From Aeromicrobium sp. (lineage in GTDB: Bacteria > Actinomycetota > Coriobacteriia > Anaerosomatales > Anaerosomataceae), in contig JADIIM010000039.1 of assembly GCA_015351705.1 (NCBI GenBank), positions 1 through 32,929 on the forward strand: a stretch of 32,929 nucleotides of DNA, given 5' to 3'. The notes beneath the pieces are model-generated. The model saw only the letters and a program-made list of their open reading frames with translations, had not been told where the DNA came from and ran no database searches. The translations under genes were made by a program, and so were the position numbers. Shown one piece after another: positions 5,124 through 16,276 of the stretch; position 1 is the stretch's first letter; every line of letters starts with the position of its first letter.

Positions 5124-5536
5124 AGCGCGCGGTCTTCGACGCCAGCGTACTCGTGAAGCTGGTGGTACCTGAGCCCGGCGCACCGGGCGCCCTACGCGTG
5201 TACGGAGCGTGTGATGACCAGCTCGCACCCGAGTGGGCGATGCTGGAGTGTGCTCACGCGCTGTGGCGCAAGTGGCTGAGGTCCGAATACGATGCCCTGA
5301 CGATGCGCGAGTCACACGCTGCGCTGGGTTCTCTGGGAATCCAGCTACTCGAGTCCGGCTCACTGGTCGCCGACGCGCTCGATCTGGCGCTGGCGCACCG
5401 GCACCCCGTCTACGACTGCCTCTACCTCACGCTCGCCCTCGCCGAGGACGCGGCGCTCGTGACCGCCGACGCAAGACTGCGTGACCTCGCCTTGCAGCTC
5501 GGCATCGAGGTGACGTGGATCGACGCGAGCGCCTAG
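5120..5536 (+). CDS. PIN-domain ribonuclease toxin, VapC family (module 1)
   Basis: 138-residue PIN-domain toxin; relatives are Mg2+-dependent RNases that cut tRNA or rRNA and stop translation unless bound by the antitoxin. The acidic quartet is complete: Asp7 (FDASVLVK), Glu43 (LECAHALW), Asp99 (HPVYDCLYL) and Asp117 (TADARL). The four acids occur at exactly the same residue numbers in the module 3 toxin. Its start overlaps the antitoxin stop by 4 bases. The last 4 bases overlap the stop of the convergent membrane-protein gene. An intact active site argues for a functional toxin. Confidence 0.9.
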   Translation: MKRAVFDASVLVKLVVPEPGAPGALRVYGACDDQLAPEWAMLECAHALWRKWLRSEYDALTMRESHAALGSLGIQLLESGSLVADALDLALAHRHPVYDCLYLTLALAEDAALVTADARLRDLALQLGIEVTWIDASA

Positions 5537-6543
5537 CCGGCTTCAGGCTCTCGCTGGAGCAGGCGCATGAGGGCGATCGCCACGAGCATCAGCTCCCCGA
5601 GCACCGTCAGCGCAAGCAGACCGGTGTCGAGCTGCCAGCCGTAGAAAGCATCGGGGCCCCCTGAGACCTCGAGCGCCTCGGCGATGGTCTGCACGACGAC
5701 GTACGCCGTGGGGCCGAGTGACAGAAGCGCGAGCAGACGTCCGAGGTCGACGCGGATAGCGCCCGCTATCACGAGCAGCACGACGGAGACGAGCAGCCAG
5801 CGCATGGCGTCACCGTACTGCAGCCACGGCCACGCTGCCACCAACAAACCCGCGACGACCGGTGCGATCACCGCGCGGAGCACGCTCCACCACGGACGCC
5901 GCATACCGTCCGGGGCTGCAACGGCCGCAGCCTGTTCGGCCATGGCGCGCACCTCGGCCGCCTGCGTCACCCCCGCATCAACGACCGCGAGCACCGACTC
6001 GTAGTTCTCCGGCGTGCAGTGCAGCCGCAGGACCGTGCGCCAGGAGTTGCGCAGCGAGATGACCCGCTGCGCCGGGAAAGGGCGCACAGCGTGGATGTCC
6101 GTCCACGTCCACCCGCCCTGCTCGCGAGCGGATGCGAGCAGGCCCGCACCGGCCGTGGTCGCGCTGCCGCCGAGCACGCCGAGAAGCACCGCCGACCGGC
6201 TGAGCTTCCGCTCCCGGGAGCCGGTCGCGTACGCAACGCCCTCGGCGTCAACGCGAAACGTCATCGTCATACCGTTGCCGAGCAGCACACCGGTCACGAC
6301 GAAGAGCGCGAACAACACGGCGGCAGTCAGCACCGGGACTGCAAGCGGCAACAAGACCGGCTCCCCCTCGACGAACCAACCCGTGGCCGCGACCAGGACG
6401 TACATGATGAGGACGGACATCGCGGTCACCCGCACCATGTCCCACAGCATGAAGCGGCTGGTCAGCAGCGGTACGCGATACTCCCAGGTGATCGCGTCAG
6501 CCCCCGCCTCACTGCGCTCGCCCGCCTCTGCATGCTCGCTCAC
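5533..6543 (-). CDS. Multi-pass membrane protein of unknown function
   Basis: 336 residues, GTG start at 6543 with GGAGAGAGGG upstream. I do not recognise a family. Visible layout: a short acidic cytoplasmic N-terminus; a membrane hairpin at about 37-57 and 66-90; a soluble region at about 92-200 including VDAEGVAYATGSRERKLSRS, resembling a small membrane-associated beta domain (PH-like in style, not proven); then four to five more hydrophobic segments from about 222 to 328 and a short basic-acidic tail. It is last in a minus-strand run (regulator, rtcB, acetyltransferase, this gene), with a 44-base gap to the acetyltransferase gene, so it could be in that transcript. No function assigned. 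Confidence 0.6.
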   Translation of the reverse strand: MSEHAEAGERSEAGADAITWEYRVPLLTSRFMLWDMVRVTAMSVLIMYVLVAATGWFVEGEPVLLPLAVPVLTAAVLFALFVVTGVLLGNGMTMTFRVDAEGVAYATGSRERKLSRSAVLLGVLGGSATTAGAGLLASAREQGGWTWTDIHAVRPFPAQRVISLRNSWRTVLRLHCTPENYESVLAVVDAGVTQAAEVRAMAEQAAAVAAPDGMRRPWWSVLRAVIAPVVAGLLVAAWPWLQYGDAMRWLLVSVVLLVIAGAIRVDLGRLLALLSLGPTAYVVVQTIAEALEVSGGPDAFYGWQLDTGLLALTVLGELMLVAIALMRLLQREPEAG

Positions 6544-6587
6544 GTGTGCCCTCTCTCCGTTGCCGCCCCTTCATGCCCTCACACATC

Positions 6588-7487
6588 CTATCCCGATTCG
6601 CGCACCCGCTCCCAGCACACGCGTACGTCATCGACCGAGAAACCGGCATCAAGGTACAACGCGATGGCGCGACGATTGTTCGTGCTCACCGACAGGTGCA
6701 CCGCAAGGCGACCGTCATCGGCGGCCGCCCGGCACGCCGCGCACAGCAGTGTCCTCCCGAGTCCGACCCCTTGATGGCCGGGGACGACCGCGAGCCCCTC
6801 GACCTCAGCGAGCAGCGGGTCGTCGGCGTCACCGACCGTCAGCACCACGCCTGCCGGTGTGCCATTACGCCAGGCGATGAGCGTGCCGCCTCGGATGACG
6901 CGTGTTCGTGCGAGGATCTCGCTCGCCCGTTCGGGCGTCATGTCGTAGCGCCCCGGCTCTCCACGGAACGCCGAGTTCACGACATGCGCCCAGTCGTCGG
7001 CCGCGGACGGCAGCGCGGGCCGGACCTCCGTCCCGGACGGGCGCTCGCACCCCTGCGCGCGGGAGGGATCACCGTGCTTCAGGATGTAGGCGCGCCGCGT
7101 GGTCACGAATCCCCGCGCGGACAGCACGTCTTCGACCTCCCCGGCGTGTTCCGGCAGGAACAGGAACAGCCGGGACACATCGGCGGGCACGAGCGTCTCA
7201 AGCCGATCAAGCATCGGCTCGTACGCGTGGGCATCGGTCGCATGCAGGATGCGGAGACGCGCGGCCCCCGTCTGCCGGTACCCGTCGAGCATCGCCGAAG
7301 TCGCACCGAGCGTCTGCCCGTCCGCTCCGACCGCCAGGACCGCTGGCTCCACGGCCGGATCGAACCCGGCCAGGTCCTCCGGTGCCAGATACGAGTCGTC
7401 GTGTGCCGCACCGTGAGCATGCGCGTACTCCAGAAACGCATCTCGGCCAGCGCCGTCCAGCACGACGACGTCGATGGTCTCCCCCAT
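6588..7487 (-). CDS. GNAT-family N-acetyltransferase, two tandem GNAT folds
   Basis: 299 residues, about twice a single GNAT domain. The C-terminal half (about 150-299) carries the acetyl-CoA motif A as VEGLAVVPGHQGVGLGRTLL (R/Q-x-x-G-x-G/A type) followed by LSVSTNNRRAIALYLDAGF, the common end of GNAT domains. The N-terminal half looks like a degenerate GNAT fold, without a clear acetyl-CoA loop, as in mycothiol synthase (MshD)-like proteins. Substrate unknown; MshD itself is possible but unsupported, since no other mycothiol genes are present. ATG at 7487 follows a GGGGGGCGAG stretch. It sits just downstream of rtcB on the same strand, so co-transcription is likely. Confidence 0.75.
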   Translation of the reverse strand: MGETIDVVVLDGAGRDAFLEYAHAHGAAHDDSYLAPEDLAGFDPAVEPAVLAVGADGQTLGATSAMLDGYRQTGAARLRILHATDAHAYEPMLDRLETLVPADVSRLFLFLPEHAGEVEDVLSARGFVTTRRAYILKHGDPSRAQGCERPSGTEVRPALPSAADDWAHVVNSAFRGEPGRYDMTPERASEILARTRVIRGGTLIAWRNGTPAGVVLTVGDADDPLLAEVEGLAVVPGHQGVGLGRTLLCAACRAAADDGRLAVHLSVSTNNRRAIALYLDAGFSVDDVRVCWERVRESG

Positions 7488-7508: not shown

Positions 7509-8669
7509 TCAGCCCTTGAGCACCGCGAACGGCGTGAGGCGCACGCGCGGCTCCACAAGATCGCGCTGCCAGAGCATCACCTCTTCGATATCTTTGTACG
7601 CCTGTGGGGCCTCCTCCGCTACATCACCCTTCTTCGTCTTCATGAGCCGCACGTCGCGCGCCTCCAGGTCCGCGAGCACACGCTCGCGCGGCAGCGCCCT
7701 GAGCGCCGCCTTCCGTCCCATCACGCGGCCGGCACCGTGACTGCACGACTCGAACGCATCGGGGTTGGCCAGCCCCGTGCAGACATACGACGCGGTACCC
7801 ATGGAACCCGGCACCAGCACGGTCCCGCGCGCACGTACAGCTCCCTTGCGGTGGACGACCACCTCCTCCCCGAAGTGGGTCTCGATCGCCGCGTAGTTGT
7901 GGTGGATGTCAGTGTGCGCCCGGGGTCTGACACCCGGGAACAAGCGGTCCAGCGCCTGCTGCACCGCCTCGGCCATCAAGCGCCGGCTCTCACGGGCGAA
8001 GCGCAGGCACCAGCCCATCGCCGCGAGGTACTCGGCACCCTCGGACGTATCGATGCCGAGGTGCGCAAGCCCCCATTCCGGCGGCACCGGCGAGCTCTCG
8101 CGCCGGTTCACGTCGCGCGCAAGGCGGTCGTAGTGCTCGGCGATCTGCTTGCCAACGTTGCGCGAGCCTGAGTGGATCATCGCCCACGCCATGCCGTCGG
8201 GATCGGTCTGCAGCTCGATGAAGTGGTTGCCCCCGCCGAGGGAGCCCACCTGCCGCTCGGCCTTCGCGAGCTCCGCCGACAGCACGGGGATGTCCGGGGC
8301 CTCGCGGAAGAGGTCCGTGCGGTGTGCCTGACTGGCCCGATGCCAGTCGAAGCCCTGCGGCACGTCGCGCTGCACCTGGCCAAGCACCTCGTCGCGGCGC
8401 GAGCGCACCTCGGCGGCAGGGACGTCCGTGGGCCACGCACGCACGCCACAGCCGATGTCCAGCCCCACCGCATGCGGGATCACCTGGCCGAGAGTGGCGA
8501 GCACGCCGCCGATCGGCATGCCGTATCCGACGTGGGCGTCCGGCATCAGCGCCACGTGATGGAAGGCGAACGGCAGGTTGGCGAGGTTGCGCGTCTGCTG
8601 GAGCGTGGCGTCGTCCGCCGACTCGCCCCATACGAAGATGGGGACGCGCTCGGTGGAGATGGTGTGCAT
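7509..8669 (-). CDS. rtcB: RNA-splicing ligase RtcB
   Basis: 386 residues. RtcB joins RNA 2',3'-cyclic phosphate (or 3'-phosphate) ends to 5'-OH ends using GTP and Mn2+, acting in RNA repair. Seen: MPDAHVGYGMPIGGV, the metal-ligand cysteine in GLDIGCGVRA (Cys74), the GGGNHFIEL loop, HSGSRNVGKQ, and the guanylylated-histidine motif SCSHGAGRVMGRKAA. All key residues are present. The ATG at 8669 has GAGGAGG upstream and matches the family start; an upstream in-frame GTG adds an unrelated 30 residues. The upstream gene, 55 bases away on the same strand, is an AlbA_2/GHKL/winged-helix regulator, not the sigma-54 activator RtcR known from proteobacteria, and no archease or RtcA is next to it. Confidence 0.95.
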   Translation of the reverse strand: MHTISTERVPIFVWGESADDATLQQTRNLANLPFAFHHVALMPDAHVGYGMPIGGVLATLGQVIPHAVGLDIGCGVRAWPTDVPAAEVRSRRDEVLGQVQRDVPQGFDWHRASQAHRTDLFREAPDIPVLSAELAKAERQVGSLGGGNHFIELQTDPDGMAWAMIHSGSRNVGKQIAEHYDRLARDVNRRESSPVPPEWGLAHLGIDTSEGAEYLAAMGWCLRFARESRRLMAEAVQQALDRLFPGVRPRAHTDIHHNYAAIETHFGEEVVVHRKGAVRARGTVLVPGSMGTASYVCTGLANPDAFESCSHGAGRVMGRKAALRALPRERVLADLEARDVRLMKTKKGDVAEEAPQAYKDIEEVMLWQRDLVEPRVRLTPFAVLKG

Positions 8670-8724
8670 CGAAAGGACCTCCTCAGGAGAAGGTACCCGC
8701 GGGCGCAGTCGCGCAGCCCGTTCG

Positions 8725-10125
8725 TCAATCCTCCCGGTCGCCTGGACCACCGCGCCCATAGCCGCGCGGCTCTTCGGCCACGTGGTAGGTGCGCTGCGGG
8801 TCGGTGGGCCCGCTGCCGACCTCCACCACCAGCCCGCGCTCGATCAGCTTCTGCAGGCGGGTTCGCGTGGCGCGGGGCGTCCGGCCTATCGCAGCCGCCA
8901 CCTCGCTCGTGGTCAGCCCGTCCGAATCACGCATCGCCGAGAGCGCCGCCTCGTCGATCGCGTCGATGGCGCGCGGTGGCTCACTCCGTCCCGAGGTGAG
9001 CGTCACACGGAAGCGCATCCCGACCTCCTCGAGCAGCGGCTCCGGCAGTCCGGCCTGGCGGCAGGCCTCGCGCATGCGCGCCACCCCGCTGCCCCACTGC
9101 TCGATCAGGCCGAGCTCGCGGAACACGCGCCCGATCACGCGATTTCGCAGCTTGGACACGCCGCCGAGGACGTCGGCGATGGTGAGGCCCGGCACGAGCA
9201 TGCCGGGGTTCTCGACTTCCAGGCGGTCGTCGAAGATCGCGATGCGGATGGGCGCTCCCTGCTGCGAGTAGTCCGCGTGCACCACCGCGTTCACGATCGC
9301 TTCGCGCACCGCGGCAGGCGGGTACTCGGGCACCTCGAGCCGACGCGCTCCACCGATCTCGTAGCGCGTGGCCGTGTTGCGCACCACGAACGCGATCGCG
9401 TGGTCCACCGCATCAATGAGCGGAACGGTGATGTCCGCCGAGTCGATGATCGTGCTCTTGGAGGCGCCCTTGAACCGCCCCGCCTGCACCCACGCGTCCG
9501 GGAAGCGCTCCAGCCGGTCTCGGCCAAAGAGGAGCAGCCCGCCGACGGTAGGAGCATCACGCCCCTGGGCGGTGGTGGTGAGCCGGAGCGTCTTCAGGTC
9601 CGAGCGCCGGATATCCCGCACTCCAGAGAACGCCGTCCGCACCGCCGCGAGATCGATGGCGTCGGCCCCGAGGTCTGGCACCGGCTGCTCGTCGAAACCC
9701 ACGCCCTGCGCCGAGCGCGCGATCTCGGCGGCCAGCTGCGCGTCCGCCCGGCGGTTGGTGGAGCCGAGGCGCACGAACGTCCCCTCGGCGGGACCGAGCG
9801 ATGCGACGTGGTATGGACGCGATGGGCCGAGATGGACGCGCACAGCCACGACGTGCGTGCTGCGCCAGGGCACGACCTCGATGTCCGGCAGCACGCGGGG
9901 GACGATGCCGTCGGCAATGATGCTCGCCAGGCGCTCCTCGAGATCGAGCGGCTCCGGCACGCCCACGACCGCGCCGGTCCGGTCCTCGATGCCGAACAGC
10001 AGCCTGCCGCCCGCGGTGTTCGCGAACGCACACACCGTGCGCAGGATCGGCCCCGCCGAGGAAGCGTCTCGCTTGAACTCGAGCGTCTTGCCTTCCGGGG
10101 CGGACTTGAGAGTGCGGAGGTCCAT
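8725..10125 (-). CDS. AlbA_2 - GHKL ATPase - winged-helix regulator
   Basis: 466-residue predicted DNA-binding protein often annotated as RecG-like or putative transcriptional regulator. Domain order: Schlafen-type AlbA_2 domain (about 5-130; EGKTLEFKRDAS, FANTAGGRLLFGIED), a middle region, GHKL/HATPase_c_4-like domain (about 280-385; VREAIVNAVVHADYSQQG and QWGSGVARMREACR), and a C-terminal winged helix (about 408-445; LTTSEVAAAIGRTPRATRTRLQKLIERGLV). It probably senses a nucleotide or nucleic-acid signal and regulates transcription; AlbA_2 proteins are common beside defence genes. The ATG at 10125 lies 7 bases after a -10-like TAGACT, suggesting a leaderless message. An 11-bp perfect inverted repeat covers that promoter. 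It is followed by rtcB and divergent from the restriction-modification operon. Confidence 0.85.
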   Translation of the reverse strand: MDLRTLKSAPEGKTLEFKRDASSAGPILRTVCAFANTAGGRLLFGIEDRTGAVVGVPEPLDLEERLASIIADGIVPRVLPDIEVVPWRSTHVVAVRVHLGPSRPYHVASLGPAEGTFVRLGSTNRRADAQLAAEIARSAQGVGFDEQPVPDLGADAIDLAAVRTAFSGVRDIRRSDLKTLRLTTTAQGRDAPTVGGLLLFGRDRLERFPDAWVQAGRFKGASKSTIIDSADITVPLIDAVDHAIAFVVRNTATRYEIGGARRLEVPEYPPAAVREAIVNAVVHADYSQQGAPIRIAIFDDRLEVENPGMLVPGLTIADVLGGVSKLRNRVIGRVFRELGLIEQWGSGVARMREACRQAGLPEPLLEEVGMRFRVTLTSGRSEPPRAIDAIDEAALSAMRDSDGLTTSEVAAAIGRTPRATRTRLQKLIERGLVVEVGSGPTDPQRTYHVAEEPRGYGRGGPGDRED

Positions 10126-10132
10126 ACTCGGA

Positions 10133-10160
10133 AGTCTACTCTGAAGTTGATGGAGTGCAA
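10133..10160 (-). promoter_or_regulatory. Putative leaderless promoter of the AlbA_2 regulator
   Basis: Minus-strand TTGCAC (10155-10160), 16-base spacer, TAGACT (10133-10138), then 7 bases to the ATG at 10125. The predicted transcription start falls on the start codon and no Shine-Dalgarno sequence is present, consistent with a leaderless message, which is common in actinobacteria. Confidence 0.45.
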
Positions 10161-10174
10161 GGGCTTCAGAGTAG
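10136..10174. promoter_or_regulatory. 11-bp perfect inverted repeat (operator candidate)
   Basis: CTACTCTGAAG (10136-10146) and its exact complement CTTCAGAGTAG (10164-10174) flank a 17-base centre. The repeat spans the predicted -35/-10 of the AlbA_2 gene and ends 8 bases before the -35 of the divergent methyltransferase promoter, so one bound factor could control both. The AlbA_2 protein itself is the obvious candidate, by inference. Confidence 0.6.
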
Positions 10175-10182
10175 GTTGGCGC

Positions 10183-10211
10183 TTGATCCCTGTCATAGCT
10201 AGCCCTACAAT
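10183..10211 (+). promoter_or_regulatory. Promoter of the restriction-modification methyltransferase
   Basis: TTGATC (10183-10188), exactly 17 bases, TACAAT (10206-10211): a very good sigma-70-type promoter. The -35 hexamer contains GATC, the site cut by Sau3AI-family enzymes like the one encoded here, so methylation could feed back on the methyltransferase gene. The predicted start is near 10218. Confidence 0.65.
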
Positions 10212-10212
10212 G

Positions 10213-10233
10213 TGAACATGTGTTCGCCCGAAC
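10213..10233. promoter_or_regulatory. SOS-box-like and adjoining palindromes at the methyltransferase start site
   Basis: TGAACATGTGTTCG (10213-10226) has the GAAC-N4-GTTC core of the Gram-positive LexA box. It runs directly into a second inverted repeat, GTTCG-CC-CGAAC (10222-10233), sharing the GTTCG half. Both lie at the predicted transcription start, ideal for repression. The binder could be LexA or another dimeric repressor. Confidence 0.5.
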
Positions 10234-10248
10234 GGAGAGGCATCACCT

Positions 10249-11556
10249 GTGACCGAATCTCCCCAGTTCCGAGTTGCCGAGCTTTTCGCTGGCGTCGGTG
10301 GCTTCCGACTCGGGCTCGAGAAGAGCGGCTGGCAGGTCGTCTGGAGCAACCAGTGGGAGCCGTCTACGCGCGAGCAGCACGCATCCCGCTGCTACGAGGC
10401 ACGCTTCGGCTCTGACGGCCACGTCTGTGAGGACATCGAGAAGGTGGTGTCCGCCGCGGACGCGGACTCCGTCATCCCGGAAATCGATCTTCTCGTGGGC
10501 GGCTTTCCTTGTCAGGACTACTCGGTCGCGAAACCGCTCCCCAAGGCCACCGGGATCCACGGTAAGAAGGGCGTCCTGTGGTGGTCCATCCACGACATGC
10601 TGGAGCTCAAACACCCGCCGTTCGTCCTGCTTGAGAACGTAGACCGTCTCCTGAAGTCACCGGCCTCGCAGCGCGGCCGTGACTTCGCGATCATCCTGTC
10701 CTGCCTCGCGAAACTGGGCTACCAGGCCGAGTGGCGCGTGGTGAACGCGGCTGACTACGGGTTCCCCCAGAGACGCCGCCGCGTGTTCCTATTTGCGCAG
10801 CTTCTGGAGACGTGCGGGTCGTGGCAAGAGCCACTACGCCGACTCTATGCTGAGGGCGTCCTGGCGAAGGCGCTACCGGTTCAGCAGACAGGGGTCGTCT
10901 TGGAGCCTACCGAGCCGGACCTGCCACCCCTCGCTGCTGACCCGTACGTGGTCAGTGAGACGTTCGGCGTAGGACTCCGGCGGTCGCCTTTCGAGAACGC
11001 TGGAGTGATGGTTGAAGGCCGGGTCTGGACGCGAGTCGTCACGCCCAAGTTCACAGGCAAGCGCAGGACGCTTGGCGACGTCGTCGCGAAGACAGGCGAC
11101 GTTCCGGAGTCCTTCTTCGTCCCAGAGGGGCGGCGTGACCAGTGGGAATACCTCAAGGGTCCCAAAGCCGAGCCCCGCGTGGACAAGAAGACGGGCCATG
11201 AGTACCGCTACTCCGAGGGTGGCATGGCCTTCCCCGACCCGCTGGACCGCCCCGCACGGACCATCTTGACTGGCGAGGGCGGATCATCTGCTTCTCGCTT
11301 CAAGCACATCATCGTCGACCCCGCGACGGGCCGACTCCGACGTCTGGTACCCGAGGAGCTCGAGGAACTGAACGGCTTCCCGCGTGGCTGGACCGACACG
11401 GGCATGACGGATGGTAAGCGCGCCTTCATGATGGGGAACGCACTCGTTGTGGGCGTCGTCCAGCGCATCGGCAAGTCGATTCGGGCTGAAGCCGAGATCT
11501 GCGCTGCTAGCGCGAAGGAAGCACGCCGTGCCGAGCCAACTGGGGCCGATTCCTGA
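10249..11556 (+). CDS. DNA (cytosine-5)-methyltransferase of a Sau3AI-type R-M system
   Basis: 435 residues, GTG start at 10249. Transfers a methyl group from SAM to cytosine C5 and protects the host from the linked endonuclease. Conserved motifs in order: motif I AELFAGVGGFRLGL (about 10-23), catalytic PCQ motif GGFPCQDYS (Cys88), motif VI ENV (129-131), motif VIII QRRRRVF, a target-recognition region (about 190-330), motif IX/X near LNGFPRGWTD and MMGNALVVGVV. Because the partner enzyme is Sau3AI-like, the site is inferred to be GATC with methylation at C; the sequence does not prove it. It overlaps the vsr-like gene by 29 bases. Promoter and operator are described at 10183-10233. Confidence 0.93.
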   Translation: MTESPQFRVAELFAGVGGFRLGLEKSGWQVVWSNQWEPSTREQHASRCYEARFGSDGHVCEDIEKVVSAADADSVIPEIDLLVGGFPCQDYSVAKPLPKATGIHGKKGVLWWSIHDMLELKHPPFVLLENVDRLLKSPASQRGRDFAIILSCLAKLGYQAEWRVVNAADYGFPQRRRRVFLFAQLLETCGSWQEPLRRLYAEGVLAKALPVQQTGVVLEPTEPDLPPLAADPYVVSETFGVGLRRSPFENAGVMVEGRVWTRVVTPKFTGKRRTLGDVVAKTGDVPESFFVPEGRRDQWEYLKGPKAEPRVDKKTGHEYRYSEGGMAFPDPLDRPARTILTGEGGSSASRFKHIIVDPATGRLRRLVPEELEELNGFPRGWTDTGMTDGKRAFMMGNALVVGVVQRIGKSIRAEAEICAASAKEARRAEPTGADS

Positions 11557-11962
11557 GCCAACATCACCAGCGGTCACGCGGTCGATGCAGGGCAACCGCG
11601 GGAAGAACACCGAGCCGGAGCTGAAGCTTCGTCGGCTCCTCCGCGAGGCCGGCTACCCTGGCTACCGGCTCCACTGGAAGAAGGCGCCCGGTCGTCCGGA
11701 TGTCGCCTATCCCGGTCGGAAGGTCGCAATCTTCGTCAACGGCTGCTTCTGGCATCAGTGTCCGCATTGCCAGCCCGTGGCGCCCAAGAGCCATTCGGAG
11801 TACTGGCAGCGGAAGTTCGAGCTCAACCGGGAGCGCGACGAGCGGAAGCGACGGGAGCTCGAGGAGGCCGGGTGGACGGTGGTAACGGTGTGGGAGTGTG
11901 AGCTGAGGACAGCCGCTCCGAAGGTCGTCGATTCGCTGACAGGCCTACTCGAGATGCGCTAG
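11528..11962 (+). CDS. vsr: Very-short-patch mismatch repair endonuclease (Vsr)
   Basis: 144 residues, the usual Vsr length. Vsr nicks 5' of T in T:G mismatches that arise when 5-methylcytosine deaminates, and so accompanies C5 methyltransferases. Seen: MQGNRGKNTEPELKLRRLL (about 20-38), GRPDVAYPGRKVAIFVNGCFWHQCPHC (catalytic Asp, then the Zn-binding His/Cys group, about 58-84), and WTVVTVWECEL (about 117-127). The GTG at 11528, inside the methyltransferase gene, is preferred because GAAGGAAG precedes it and the family normally has about 20 residues before the RGK motif. The last 4 bases overlap the end of the convergent endonuclease gene. Confidence 0.93.
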   Translation: MPSQLGPIPEPTSPAVTRSMQGNRGKNTEPELKLRRLLREAGYPGYRLHWKKAPGRPDVAYPGRKVAIFVNGCFWHQCPHCQPVAPKSHSEYWQRKFELNRERDERKRRELEEAGWTVVTVWECELRTAAPKVVDSLTGLLEMR

Positions 11963-13305
11963 CTGTCTTCGGCATCCGCCAGTTGTTCGGCGAGATAGGA
12001 CTGATTCAGCCAGAACGACTTGCGGACCGCCAGGCTTCCACTCGGTGTAGACACAAGGTCGTGTCTATCGCGGCCGTGGGGCCGAACATGGCACATCTCG
12101 TTGTCACCACTTCCTGGCAGGTAGTCCGCCCTGTCCTCCCTGACCAACGCCACGGTCTGCTCGAAGCAATCACGCGCATGGACCTCGACATCATGCGTAG
12201 GCGGGGTCCAGAACTGAGTGCGCAAGAGTGTCGGCACGCCTTGTCTGTCGAGCTGATACACGACGAAGAGGAACCTGCGCATCAGTTGATCGCGAAGGTC
12301 CGAGTCCTCCCACCGCTGTTCAACGAGATCACAGTAGTCGAAAGCGGGGAACGAGACCGCCTCTTTGGGCGTGCCGCTCGGCCGGAGTCTGACGGTACGA
12401 ACGACCAGGTCCGCCTTCTCGAACTCGGCGACCTTCTTGTCGGCGGCTACACCCAGCATCCGCCTGGTCAGAACCGCATAGTAGTTCTTCGCACCTCGCT
12501 GGACCCGCACACCGAGCCTCGCAGCGATCTCGTCAGCGGTGAGCCCGATGAACGGCTTGAAGCGCTGATGCACGACATCCTCGAAAGTCGCACCAGAGCG
12601 GAGTTCGTCCGCGGACACAGCCGATTGGCGGTCCAGGCTGTCAGCGATGATCGAGTTCATGTAGCTTGCTTTGAGCGATAAGGCCCGGGGCTTCGCCGGC
12701 TCGGCGGAGAAGGGCTGCTCACGACGGTCCGCGCTCGTCGCCCCTTTGGTGCATGCGGCCAGATAGAGCGTATCGCCTTCGGACAACTCGTGAGCGCGCC
12801 CAGCGCGAACCTTCGCGACGATCTTCTCCCAGTCATCTCTGATGACCTCAAGATCGGCCTCAGGGAAGTCCCACAGTCGCACGATCTTGATCACGAAGTC
12901 GCGCGGGTCGCCCCCATCCTCATGCAGGTAGAACACCAGCAGCAGGTGCGCGTTCTTCCGAAGGAACGAGCTGCTCTCCCACTCCTCGGATACGACTGTC
13001 ATGTAGTCGATCATGCCGAGGACAAGCCGCTCCTTGGCGACGAGCCGCTTCCCCGACCGGCGAAGCGGTGTCGCCTTCAACTCGACTCCGGCGGCAGCGA
13101 AGTCAGGCTCGGGCCGACTGTTGGGTTCGTAGCCGAAGTAGTGTCGCTCCAAAGCGGTGCCGAAGCCGCCCTTGTGACCGGAGAAGTCGATCTTCGACGG
13201 GAGCGACTCGAGTACGTCTCGCAGGGAGTAGCCTACGAGCCTCTCAGCGTAGGCGACGATCGAGTCGCGGTCTTCCGGGTCGTATGGGAGTGATGGTTGA
13301 GACAT
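11959..13305 (-). CDS. Sau3AI-family type II restriction endonuclease
   Basis: 448 residues, similar to Sau3AI and LlaKR2I. Strong likeness in GGFGTALERHYFGYEPNS, PEPDFAAAGVELKATP, KERLVLGMIDY, AHELSEGDTLYLAACTKGA, RALSLKASYM and the C-terminal CHVRPHGRDRHD. Sau3AI has two MutH-like folds, the first catalytic and the second for allosteric DNA binding; the active site here would be Asp68, Glu75 and Lys77. The predicted target is GATC. The ATG at 13305 has GGAGG upstream; upstream in-frame starts add a non-homologous stretch. It is convergent with the methyltransferase-vsr operon, so protection and cutting are separately transcribed. All motifs look intact. Confidence 0.93.
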   Translation of the reverse strand: MSQPSLPYDPEDRDSIVAYAERLVGYSLRDVLESLPSKIDFSGHKGGFGTALERHYFGYEPNSRPEPDFAAAGVELKATPLRRSGKRLVAKERLVLGMIDYMTVVSEEWESSSFLRKNAHLLLVFYLHEDGGDPRDFVIKIVRLWDFPEADLEVIRDDWEKIVAKVRAGRAHELSEGDTLYLAACTKGATSADRREQPFSAEPAKPRALSLKASYMNSIIADSLDRQSAVSADELRSGATFEDVVHQRFKPFIGLTADEIAARLGVRVQRGAKNYYAVLTRRMLGVAADKKVAEFEKADLVVRTVRLRPSGTPKEAVSFPAFDYCDLVEQRWEDSDLRDQLMRRFLFVVYQLDRQGVPTLLRTQFWTPPTHDVEVHARDCFEQTVALVREDRADYLPGSGDNEMCHVRPHGRDRHDLVSTPSGSLAVRKSFWLNQSYLAEQLADAEDS

Positions 13306-13332
13306 CGCACCTCCGCAGACCAGGTTACACCA

Positions 13333-13373
13333 GTACCCCGCTCTCCCTGGGTACACACCCCTCCAGGGGGTGT
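13333..13373 (+). promoter_or_regulatory. Tandem hairpins covering the lipoprotein ribosome-binding site
   Basis: Two adjacent inverted repeats: GTACCC (13333-13338) with GGGTAC (13349-13354), and ACACCCC (13355-13361) with GGGGTGT (13367-13373). The second 3' arm contains the purine-rich ribosome-binding site of the gene starting at 13379, so the folded RNA would hide it. They could be a translational control element; no ligand class is recognised. Confidence 0.4.
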
Positions 13374-13378
13374 TCGTC

Positions 13379-13909
13379 ATGTCGCTTCGTCACATCTTGC
13401 TCGTCGCACTCGCGCTCGTCCTCGCCCTGGCCGCCGTCGGCTGCTCCTCGGACTCCGAACCGGCCGAGGACTCCTCGGCCACCGAACCCGCTGAGACCGA
13501 CGACGCCGGCGCAACCTCGGCAGAGTTCCGTGACCTGAGCTACCTCACCGGCACGTGGACGGTCACCACCGAGCTCGTGGAGATCGACAATCCCGCCATG
13601 ACAGCTGCGGCCGACCAGCCCGGCGCCACCTGGGAGTGCGTTGTCGCGGGGGACACGATGACGCTTGTCACCGAACGCCACGAGTACACCGGCACGCTGC
13701 GACCCGAGGCCGAGGGCGGATGGGTGTACGAGGCGTCGTCGACGTTCACCGATGAGGACGGCTACACCGTCACGAGCACGATCACCGTGAGCGGCAAACC
13801 GATCAGCGCGGACCTGGACGCGCTTGTCGGTGGCATGACCGGGACGATCGACACGCCTGATGGCCGCCTCTACACCGCGCGGTGGGACCTCGAGGGGCGG
13901 CGGCAGTAG
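13379..13909 (+). CDS. Small lipoprotein of unknown function
   Basis: 176-residue predicted lipoprotein: MSLRHILL start, hydrophobic segment, lipobox AAVGC near residues 18-22, then an acidic linker rich in Ser, Glu and Thr. The mature part (about 45-176) is Thr/Val/Tyr-rich and strand-like, including LTGTWTVTTELVEI, suggesting a single beta-barrel or sandwich domain exported to the cell surface, loosely like lipocalin-type proteins that carry a GTW near their N-terminus; that likeness is weak. ATG at 13379 is preceded by AGGGGGTG, which is paired in a predicted hairpin. It lies divergent from the Sau3AI-like gene; no functional link is evident. Confidence 0.65.
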   Translation: MSLRHILLVALALVLALAAVGCSSDSEPAEDSSATEPAETDDAGATSAEFRDLSYLTGTWTVTTELVEIDNPAMTAAADQPGATWECVVAGDTMTLVTERHEYTGTLRPEAEGGWVYEASSTFTDEDGYTVTSTITVSGKPISADLDALVGGMTGTIDTPDGRLYTARWDLEGRRQ

Positions 13910-13915
13910 CTGCGC

Positions 13916-13955
13916 TTGACCATGTCAGACCACGGTACTACTCTCGGTGGTACTA
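13916..13955 (+). promoter_or_regulatory. Promoter and repeated operator of toxin-antitoxin module 2
   Basis: TTGACC (13916-13921), 17-base spacer, TACTCT (13939-13944): a good promoter 36 bases before the antitoxin ATG. GGTACTA occurs twice in direct orientation (13934-13940 and 13949-13955), 15 bases apart and overlapping the -10 and start site, as expected for ribbon-helix-helix autorepression. Confidence 0.55.
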
Positions 13956-13979
13956 GAAGTGCCACCGAAGGAGTCCGCG

Positions 13980-14270
13980 ATGGCCAAGCCCACCATCTCC
14001 ATCCCCGACGGCATGCTGGAAGACATCGACCGCCGCGCCGCCGAGGCCGGCATCTCGCGCTCAGCGTTCGTCCAGGAGGCGATCGCCCGCTACGGCGAGG
14101 CGCTCGACGAGCAGACGGCACAGGAGGCCAGGGCGCGGCGCATCCACCGGGCGATCGAGGAGATGCGCGAGATCGGGAAGAAGATGCCCCCGGGTGTTGA
14201 TGGCACGGCCATCATCCGCCGCCTCCGCGATGCTCCGCCTCGGTGGCTCGAGCCAGAGGACGAACGATGA
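13980..14270 (+). CDS. CopG-type ribbon-helix-helix antitoxin (module 2)
   Basis: 96-residue antitoxin. The N-terminus KPTISIPDGMLEDIDRRAAEAGISRSAFVQEAI is a typical CopG/RHH fold (strand, helix A, helix B; about 3-37), longer and more distant than the FitA-like antitoxins of modules 1 and 3. The following charged helix (about 42-65) and proline-rich tail probably bind the toxin. ATG at 13980 has GAAGGAG at good spacing. The stop overlaps the downstream toxin start as ATGA. Direct repeats in its promoter suggest autoregulation. Confidence 0.85.
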   Translation: MAKPTISIPDGMLEDIDRRAAEAGISRSAFVQEAIARYGEALDEQTAQEARARRIHRAIEEMREIGKKMPPGVDGTAIIRRLRDAPPRWLEPEDER

Positions 14271-14701
14271 CTCCCCTCGACCTCGAAGAGAGCCGACATG
14301 TCGTCGTGGTAGACAGCTCAGTGGCGTTCAAGTGGTTCAGCGGCGTCGGTGAAGCACGGGTGCCGGAGGCGTTCGATCTGCTCGATCAGCACGGGACCGG
14401 CGGGATCCTGCTCGTGGTGCCGGCACACCTGCCGGCAGAAGTACTGAACGGGCTCCGCTACTCACGTCTGGATTCTGAAGATGTCGCGCGCTCCGCGGCA
14501 GCCCTGAGTCATGCAGAGCTTGTCACTGTGCCCCTCACGGCGCAGCTCACGCAGCTCGCGGTCGAGATCGCCTTCACCCACGATCTCACGATCCACGACG
14601 CGCTCTTCCCCGCGCTTGCCACCCTCCTCGATGCCGAACTCGTCACCGCCGACCGCACACAGGCGCGCGTGACCGAGTGCCGGGTGCGGCTGCTGGCGTA
14701 G
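14267..14701 (+). CDS. PIN-domain toxin (module 2)
   Basis: 144-residue PIN-domain protein, probably an RNase toxin. The acidic residues are Asp16 (VVVVDSSVAFKWF), Glu58 (LPAEVLNGL), Asp111 (LTIHDALFPALA) and Asp129 (VTADRTQ). Compared with the other two PIN toxins here it has a longer N-terminus and TIHDA in place of the VYDC/IYDC motif, so it is a separate lineage. The start (ATG 14267) overlaps the antitoxin stop. No toxin target can be read from the sequence. Confidence 0.88.
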   Translation: MTPLDLEESRHVVVVDSSVAFKWFSGVGEARVPEAFDLLDQHGTGGILLVVPAHLPAEVLNGLRYSRLDSEDVARSAAALSHAELVTVPLTAQLTQLAVEIAFTHDLTIHDALFPALATLLDAELVTADRTQARVTECRVRLLA

Positions 14702-15629: not shown

Positions 15630-15866
15630 ATGGCCGACCTCCTGGTCCGCAACGTCCCGGACACCCTGATGCAGCGCCTCAAGGCACAGGCCGAGCGCAA
15701 CGGGCGCTCGATGCAGAAGGAGGCGCTCGCGGTGCTCGACGCCGGCACCCAACTCACCATGGCCGAGTGGCTGGAGCGGGCCGACGCCTTCCGCGCGAAG
15801 GCGAAGTCATGGGGCTACCTCGGCGACAGTACCGAGATGATTCGTGAGGACCGCGACAGCCGATGA
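15630..15866 (+). CDS. FitA-like ribbon-helix-helix antitoxin (module 3)
   Basis: 78-residue antitoxin. LLVRNVPDTLMQRLKAQAERNGRSMQ (about 4-29) is the FitA-type RHH fold, matching the module 1 antitoxin nearly position for position. The tail (AEWLERADAFRAKAKSW and IREDRDSR) should inhibit the PIN toxin. The ATG at 15630 marks the beginning of homology and is preceded by CGAGGAGACGTGAG. The stop overlaps the toxin start as ATGA. Confidence 0.87.
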   Translation: MADLLVRNVPDTLMQRLKAQAERNGRSMQKEALAVLDAGTQLTMAEWLERADAFRAKAKSWGYLGDSTEMIREDRDSR

Positions 15867-16276
15867 TGCCGCTCGTGACCGACGCCTCGGTTCTCTTCAA
15901 GTGCCTTCTGCCGGAATCTGGATCCGCCCAAGCTCGTCAGTTGCTCGAGCGATCCACCCGACCGATCGCTCCCGAGACCGTGATCGGCGAGTGTGCGAAC
16001 GCTGTGTGGAAGCGCGCACATCGGGGGTTGATCGATGCCCGGCAGGCGATGGAACTCCAGGGCGAACTCCTCGCGATACCCATCGATGTGCGCTCGACTG
16101 TCACTCTCACTCCAGCCGCCCTCGCCCTCGCTCTCGCGTACGACCACCCCATCTACGACTGCTACTACCTCGCAGCGGCCATCGCCAACGGCTGCCCGCT
16201 CGCCACCGCCGATAGGCGGCTGCACGACCTCGCCGTGCGCGCGGGTCTCGGGGAACGCGCGATCCTCGTGGGGTAG
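15863..16276 (+). CDS. PIN-domain ribonuclease toxin, VapC family (module 3)
   Basis: 137-residue PIN toxin with Asp7 (VTDASVLFK), Glu43 (GECANAVWK), Asp99 (HPIYDCYYL) and Asp117 (TADRRL), the same four residue numbers as the module 1 toxin. The two share most core motifs and are clear paralogs within about 11 kb. The active site is complete, so the toxin is probably functional. The gene ends 37 bases before the convergent mscL gene, with a hairpin between them. Confidence 0.9.
   Translation: MMPLVTDASVLFKCLLPESGSAQARQLLERSTRPIAPETVIGECANAVWKRAHRGLIDARQAMELQGELLAIPIDVRSTVTLTPAALALALAYDHPIYDCYYLAAAIANGCPLATADRRLHDLAVRAGLGERAILVG

Follow-up and report, generated by a model that had tools for sequence, protein, structure and literature searches.

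The gene encoding a C5-cytosine DNA methyltransferase (MTase) and the vsr gene that follows it are probably subject to two controls, repression by LexA at the transcription start site and damping by 5-methylcytosine (5mC) in a -35 hexamer that contains GATC, the putative target of the MTase itself. From the sequence of the promoter and its conservation in relatives we give this reading a probability of about 0.72. The window, which is the whole stretch of DNA analysed (32.9 kb), belongs to an assembly of 2.07 Mb in 60 contigs, and the close relatives of the source genome are MAGs named Coriobacteriia, Actinomycetes or Actinobacteria.

Genes and promoter of the locus

The features of the locus are the following, in window coordinates:

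8725-10125, minus strand: AlbA/Schlafen-type protein with an HTH_24 domain, divergent
10183..10188, plus strand: -35 hexamer TTGATC, containing GATC (from the sequence)
10192..10195, plus strand: GTCA element, 2-3 nt past the GATC (alignment of close orthologues)
10206..10211, plus strand: -10 hexamer TACAAT, with a spacer of 17 nt to the -35 (sequence, promoter scan and alignment)
10214..10225, plus strand: predicted LexA operator (SOS box) GAACATGTGTTC (lexA/recA motif match and orthologue conservation)
10222..10233, plus strand: second palindrome GTTCG-CC-CGAAC, GTTCGCCCGAAC (from the sequence)
10234-10240, plus strand: ribosome binding site GGAGAGG of the MTase gene, whose start codon is GTG
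10249..11556, plus strand: C5-cytosine DNA methyltransferase (PF00145, E 3.2e-57; TIGR00675, E 3.6e-61)
11528..11962, plus strand: Vsr-type mismatch endonuclease gene (TIGR00632, E 1.5e-33; PF03852, E 1.3e-18)
11959..13305, minus strand: Sau3AI-family type II restriction endonuclease (GATC), convergent (NF040973, E 1.5e-130)

The vsr gene overlaps the 3' end of the MTase gene and the two are probably one operon. The endonuclease reached 436 bits in the profile search with NF040973, for which the cut-off is 300; its gene likely starts at 13305 and has its own upstream region, separate from the MTase promoter. The locus has the layout of a restriction-modification (R-M) family in that a C5 MTase (PF00145, TIGR00675) adjoins a Sau3AI-type endonuclease. 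The Sau3AI family cuts GATC and, because the partner endonuclease is of this type, GATC is by analogy most likely the target of the MTase, which would make GAT5mC. A search of the own genome found no PF00145 protein other than this MTase and no PF02086 adenine MTase.

Only one sigma-70-like site, TTGATC-N17-TACAAT, was found in a promoter scan of positions 8500-14000, where 0.4 were expected. A check of the sequence placed the -35, the spacer, the -10 and both palindromes exactly where the original prediction had put them. It had also called the promoter strong; with 9/12 consensus matches its strength is fair. The predicted operator GAACATGTGTTC begins 2 nt past the -10 and so overlaps the MTase promoter, and the expected transcription start falls within it. 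Control of the whole R-M operon had been suggested as well, but just the MTase and vsr genes, and not the convergent endonuclease gene, lie behind the promoter. As regards the second palindrome, it is present at 10222-10233 but lacks conservation, the 11 aligned orthologues keeping just the GTTCG half common to the LexA box. It was rejected as an operator and is probably due to chance.

Of the 11 close relatives, L039 alone has an AlbA/Schlafen-type neighbour next to its R-M cassette. Two small gene pairs near the R-M system (window positions 13980-14700 and 15632-16276) resemble toxin-antitoxin modules; judged by eye, each has a gene for a short DNA-binding-like protein and, after it, one for a PIN-like protein.

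GATC in the core promoter of MTase homologues

Relatives of the MTase were present in 107 of the 396 genomes of the class that were examined. The close set consists of the 12 closest MTases, with about 69% identity or more, distributed over three families and ten genera. Together with 68 distant homologues it makes up the 80 compared here, which come from 106 class loci after exclusion of 26 that had no in-frame stop within 147 nt upstream. Five partial matches with late query starts were left out (G392, G309, G345, G381 and G284), L068-L072 are uncounted duplicates of L039-L041, L044 and L046, and two class members (L075 and L076) and a partial locus (L083) stand outside both the 80 and the eight full loci from other phyla. 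In some of the distant relatives (L052, L061, L104, L124 and L167-L175) an open frame of about 860-960 aa would by its length have room for a Sau3AI-like stretch as well as the MTase, which suggests endonuclease-MTase fusion proteins.

The pattern TTGATC-N16-18-TANNNT occurs at one site in the 2.07-Mb genome, the MTase promoter, against 19 sites for its TTGACA equivalent, and TTGATC was therefore discarded as the usual -35 of this genome. The same pattern was found in 11/12 close homologues (shuffle means 0.003-0.01) and in 24/68 distant ones (shuffle mean 0.09), these being related and not independent loci. A second arrangement, GATC-N3-TANNNT, in which GATC stands 3 nt before the -10, is present in 2/12 and 31/68, respectively. 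One arrangement or the other was found in all 12 close homologues and in 43 of the 68 distant homologues (means 0.04 and 0.59), that is in 55/80 overall. One box-bearing close orthologue, L046, is without TTGATC. Plain inheritance is an unlikely cause of the agreement within the close set, since the flanks diverge widely.

The density of GATC points to the same region: between -75 and -30, successive bins of 15 nt have 34, 41 and 27 sites per kb, as opposed to 1 to 5 per kb in the other upstream bins and 2.6 per kb in the gene. GATC is missing at -78 to -28 in 9/68 distant homologues. The eight full loci from other phyla include one TTGATC-N17-TANNNT and one GATC-N3-TANNNT, and in two of the three loci from other classes of the phylum TTGATC was seen by eye upstream of a -10-like hexamer. 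The promoter would carry the recognition site of its own MTase within the -35, in a conserved manner, given the specificity deduced from the partner endonuclease. The methylation feedback that the original prediction had read from this GATC gains support from how strongly the MTase family conserves GATC in its core promoters.

Past the GATC, GTC is the majority in the column counts of the class homologues, and a GTCA or GTCC element 2-3 nt past the -35 GATC is kept even in distant homologues.

These counts bear on the possibility that the promoter is controlled by LexA only, being an SOS-regulated promoter in which the -35 GATC is tolerated or inherited and its methylation is without regulatory effect. 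C5 methylation need not disturb the binding of sigma, and the LexA box is well supported by the lexA and recA genes of the same genome, by relatives and by orthologues. However, TTGATC and not TTGACA is used as -35 in 35 of the 80 homologues, TTGA followed by another dinucleotide was found at promoter spacing just once (TTGAGC), and there is the second GATC 3 nt before the -10 in nearly half of the distant homologues. Such a choice of GATC is hard to explain without a role, and LexA control with an idle GATC is regarded as unlikely.

The predicted LexA operator

There is exactly one match to GAACNNNNGTTC in the window. Genome-wide the 36 matches do not exceed the 47 of the reversed control pattern, so that there is no enrichment and the motif alone proves nothing. 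As many of the 36 exact boxes also sit inside genes, it is position and conservation that carry the argument for a LexA box.

The lexA gene of the source genome (TIGR00498) has two exact boxes upstream, GAACACGTGTTC and GAACAGATGTTC (C16:41021 and 41049), and recA has one, GAACATATGTTC (C16:55087). Exact boxes are also found upstream of uvrA and of genes encoding a uvrD/pcrA-like helicase, RuvC (ruvC) and a dnaE-like polymerase. A scoring matrix trained on six sites at SOS genes placed the MTase box 8th among the 36 exact genome matches. Among relatives, the upstream region of lexA contains at least one exact box in 14/14 cases. The comparison with the lexA and recA sites of the same genome, which could have revealed differing boxes, gave the same GAACNNNNGTTC; with this agreement, and with the MTase box present in most close orthologues, the original reading of the site as a LexA box is supported.

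The lexA promoters of the lineage (L084-L097) contain two to four LexA boxes when copies with one mismatch are counted, a common copy being GAACNNNNGTTT, roughly 85 to 90 nt before the domain start. The exact GAACATGTGTTC 12-mer also occurs at L020:5261-5272 (G000:C30:41260), 114 nt upstream of a gene for an AbiEi-type antitoxin that is followed by a second ORF (5386-7055). An AbiE-like pair may thus be SOS-linked too.

In the close set vsr adjoins the MTase gene in 12/12 loci, and the exact box is present in 10/12, at -32 to -36 from the start codon (shuffle mean 0.035). The ten box-bearing orthologues span 8/10 genera of the set; in the two others, L043 and L049, no exact box was found upstream. 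The identity of 1.00 in the box arms is circular, because these ten loci were chosen for having the box, and the informative values are those of the N4 centre, with seven forms and a mean identity of 0.55, and of the flanks, with a mean pairwise identity of 0.31. The exact box was found upstream in none of the other class loci (0/68 used, 0/94 scored), nor in the eight loci from other phyla and the three from other classes. On these counts a box common to all vsr-linked or all GATC MTases was rejected.

Within 140 nt upstream of the endonuclease gene no exact LexA box was found in any of six loci, and LexA control of the endonuclease was discarded. DNA damage should therefore shift the balance towards modification. 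GATC is present within these 140 nt in 3/6 loci but not in the locus of the window.

It could also be supposed that methylation feedback is the only control and that a protein other than LexA, either the MTase itself or some regulator of the cassette, binds the palindrome over the start. The R-M system is patchy, since only 19 of the 69 genomes of the order carry a relative of the MTase, and resembles a mobile cassette that may bring its own control; moreover, the 5' flank of the box is unlike that of the lexA and recA boxes, the base before GAAC being T in the MTase box and C in the others. This is nevertheless very doubtful, as the 12-bp core matches the motif of the lexA and recA boxes of the genome and the lexA boxes of relatives, and the MTase-vsr unit is without a controller gene between promoter, MTase and vsr. 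Furthermore, an N-terminal HTH extension, as in regulatory MTases of the SsoII type, is not present in the MTase, whose PF00145 domain begins at residue 7. In a scan limited to four proteins the one HTH domain was the HTH_24 of the divergent AlbA/Schlafen-type protein.

A chance origin of both GAAC-N4-GTTC and GATC close to an ordinary promoter, for which the 36 exact genome boxes with their many intragenic copies might speak, has a negligible probability, since the box is conserved in the orthologues against an expectation of 0.035 and the TTGATC promoter in 11/12 against at most 0.01; a chance match of the box was thus rejected on conservation, even though the raw genome count is unenriched.

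Proposed regulation of the MTase promoter

In the preferred reading, with both LexA and methylation acting on the promoter, LexA bound to GAACATGTGTTC over the start site would block initiation, as the position of the operator suggests, and RecA-triggered cleavage of LexA would free the promoter. The MTase would methylate the -35 GATC and the two methyl groups would lower initiation, the promoter being strongest when unmethylated. Sigma region 4 reads the -35 in the major groove. Full methylation of TTGATC would place one methyl on the C at -30 and another across from the G at -33, and because these groups would lie in the groove read by sigma region 4, lower initiation is the likely effect, by analogy with CfrBI. 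Such a promoter could work as a homeostat, in which too little methylation, cuts by the system's own endonuclease or DNA damage of other kinds would lead to more MTase and Vsr.

Endonuclease attack on under-methylated chromosomes induces SOS, according to earlier work (PMC3874152), and in a Caulobacter study on ScmA and VsrA SOS is set off when 5mC is lost and a Vsr-like protein is present (PMC12907096). As SOS is induced in these ways, placing the modification genes under a LexA operator would close a protective loop. A two-input homeostat against self-restriction can tentatively be proposed from this, although its odds are rather less than even. The direct input would be a shortage of MTase read as an unmethylated -35 GATC. 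The indirect input would be breaks made by the Sau3AI-type endonuclease or by Vsr on under-methylated DNA, through which RecA would be activated, LexA cleaved and the same promoter freed. On this view direct feedback by methylation would be ancestral to the Sau3AI-type R-M systems and shared throughout the class; the LexA operator would have been gained later, by a single lineage of mobile cassettes with MTase, vsr and endonuclease.

Relatives keep both sites, and it is probable that the cell tunes its self-protection to DNA damage and to the absence of methylation marks. If this is true, a modification enzyme tied to SOS through this one promoter would explain how the host of a frequent cutter survives damage, replication stress and the entry of the cassette.

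Comparison with known systems

A 2025 review (PMC12707154, section 10) describes promoter methylation in R-M control as 'apparently rarely used' and names three systems, CfrBI, AhdI and LlaDII, in which it affects the MTase gene; for CfrBI the effect is a block of RNA polymerase at the methylated MTase promoter. The three systems are like the present one in having the recognition site of the own MTase in the MTase promoter. They differ in that here GATC, the presumed site of 5mC, lies inside the -35 and is accompanied by a predicted LexA operator. Moreover, CfrBI has divergent and overlapping MTase and endonuclease promoters, whereas the genes are convergent here. The device may be common, because GATC is found in or beside the core promoter in more than two thirds of the class homologues.

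The LexA box of B. subtilis is given as GAACN4GTTC in the literature (PMC4234289). This box of the Gram-positive LexA/SOS regulon is the same as that found here at the MTase, lexA and recA genes, but what LexA would control here is a pair of R-M modification genes and not a repair gene. Au et al. are said to have placed in the LexA regulon, in 2005, the ydiO-ydiP genes of B. subtilis, which encode the C5 MTases of the type II R-M system BsuM. The specificity of BsuM differs from that of the system described here.

For vsrA of Caulobacter, LexA control is suspected by the authors (PMC12907096). Unlike here, the MTase in that case is solitary, vsr is unlinked and the suspected box is intragenic. 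A literature search made mostly at the level of titles and the beginnings of abstracts found no paper on LexA control and promoter methylation combined. Each of the two controls has precedents; what looks new is that they are combined, and that the GATC signal extends across the class.
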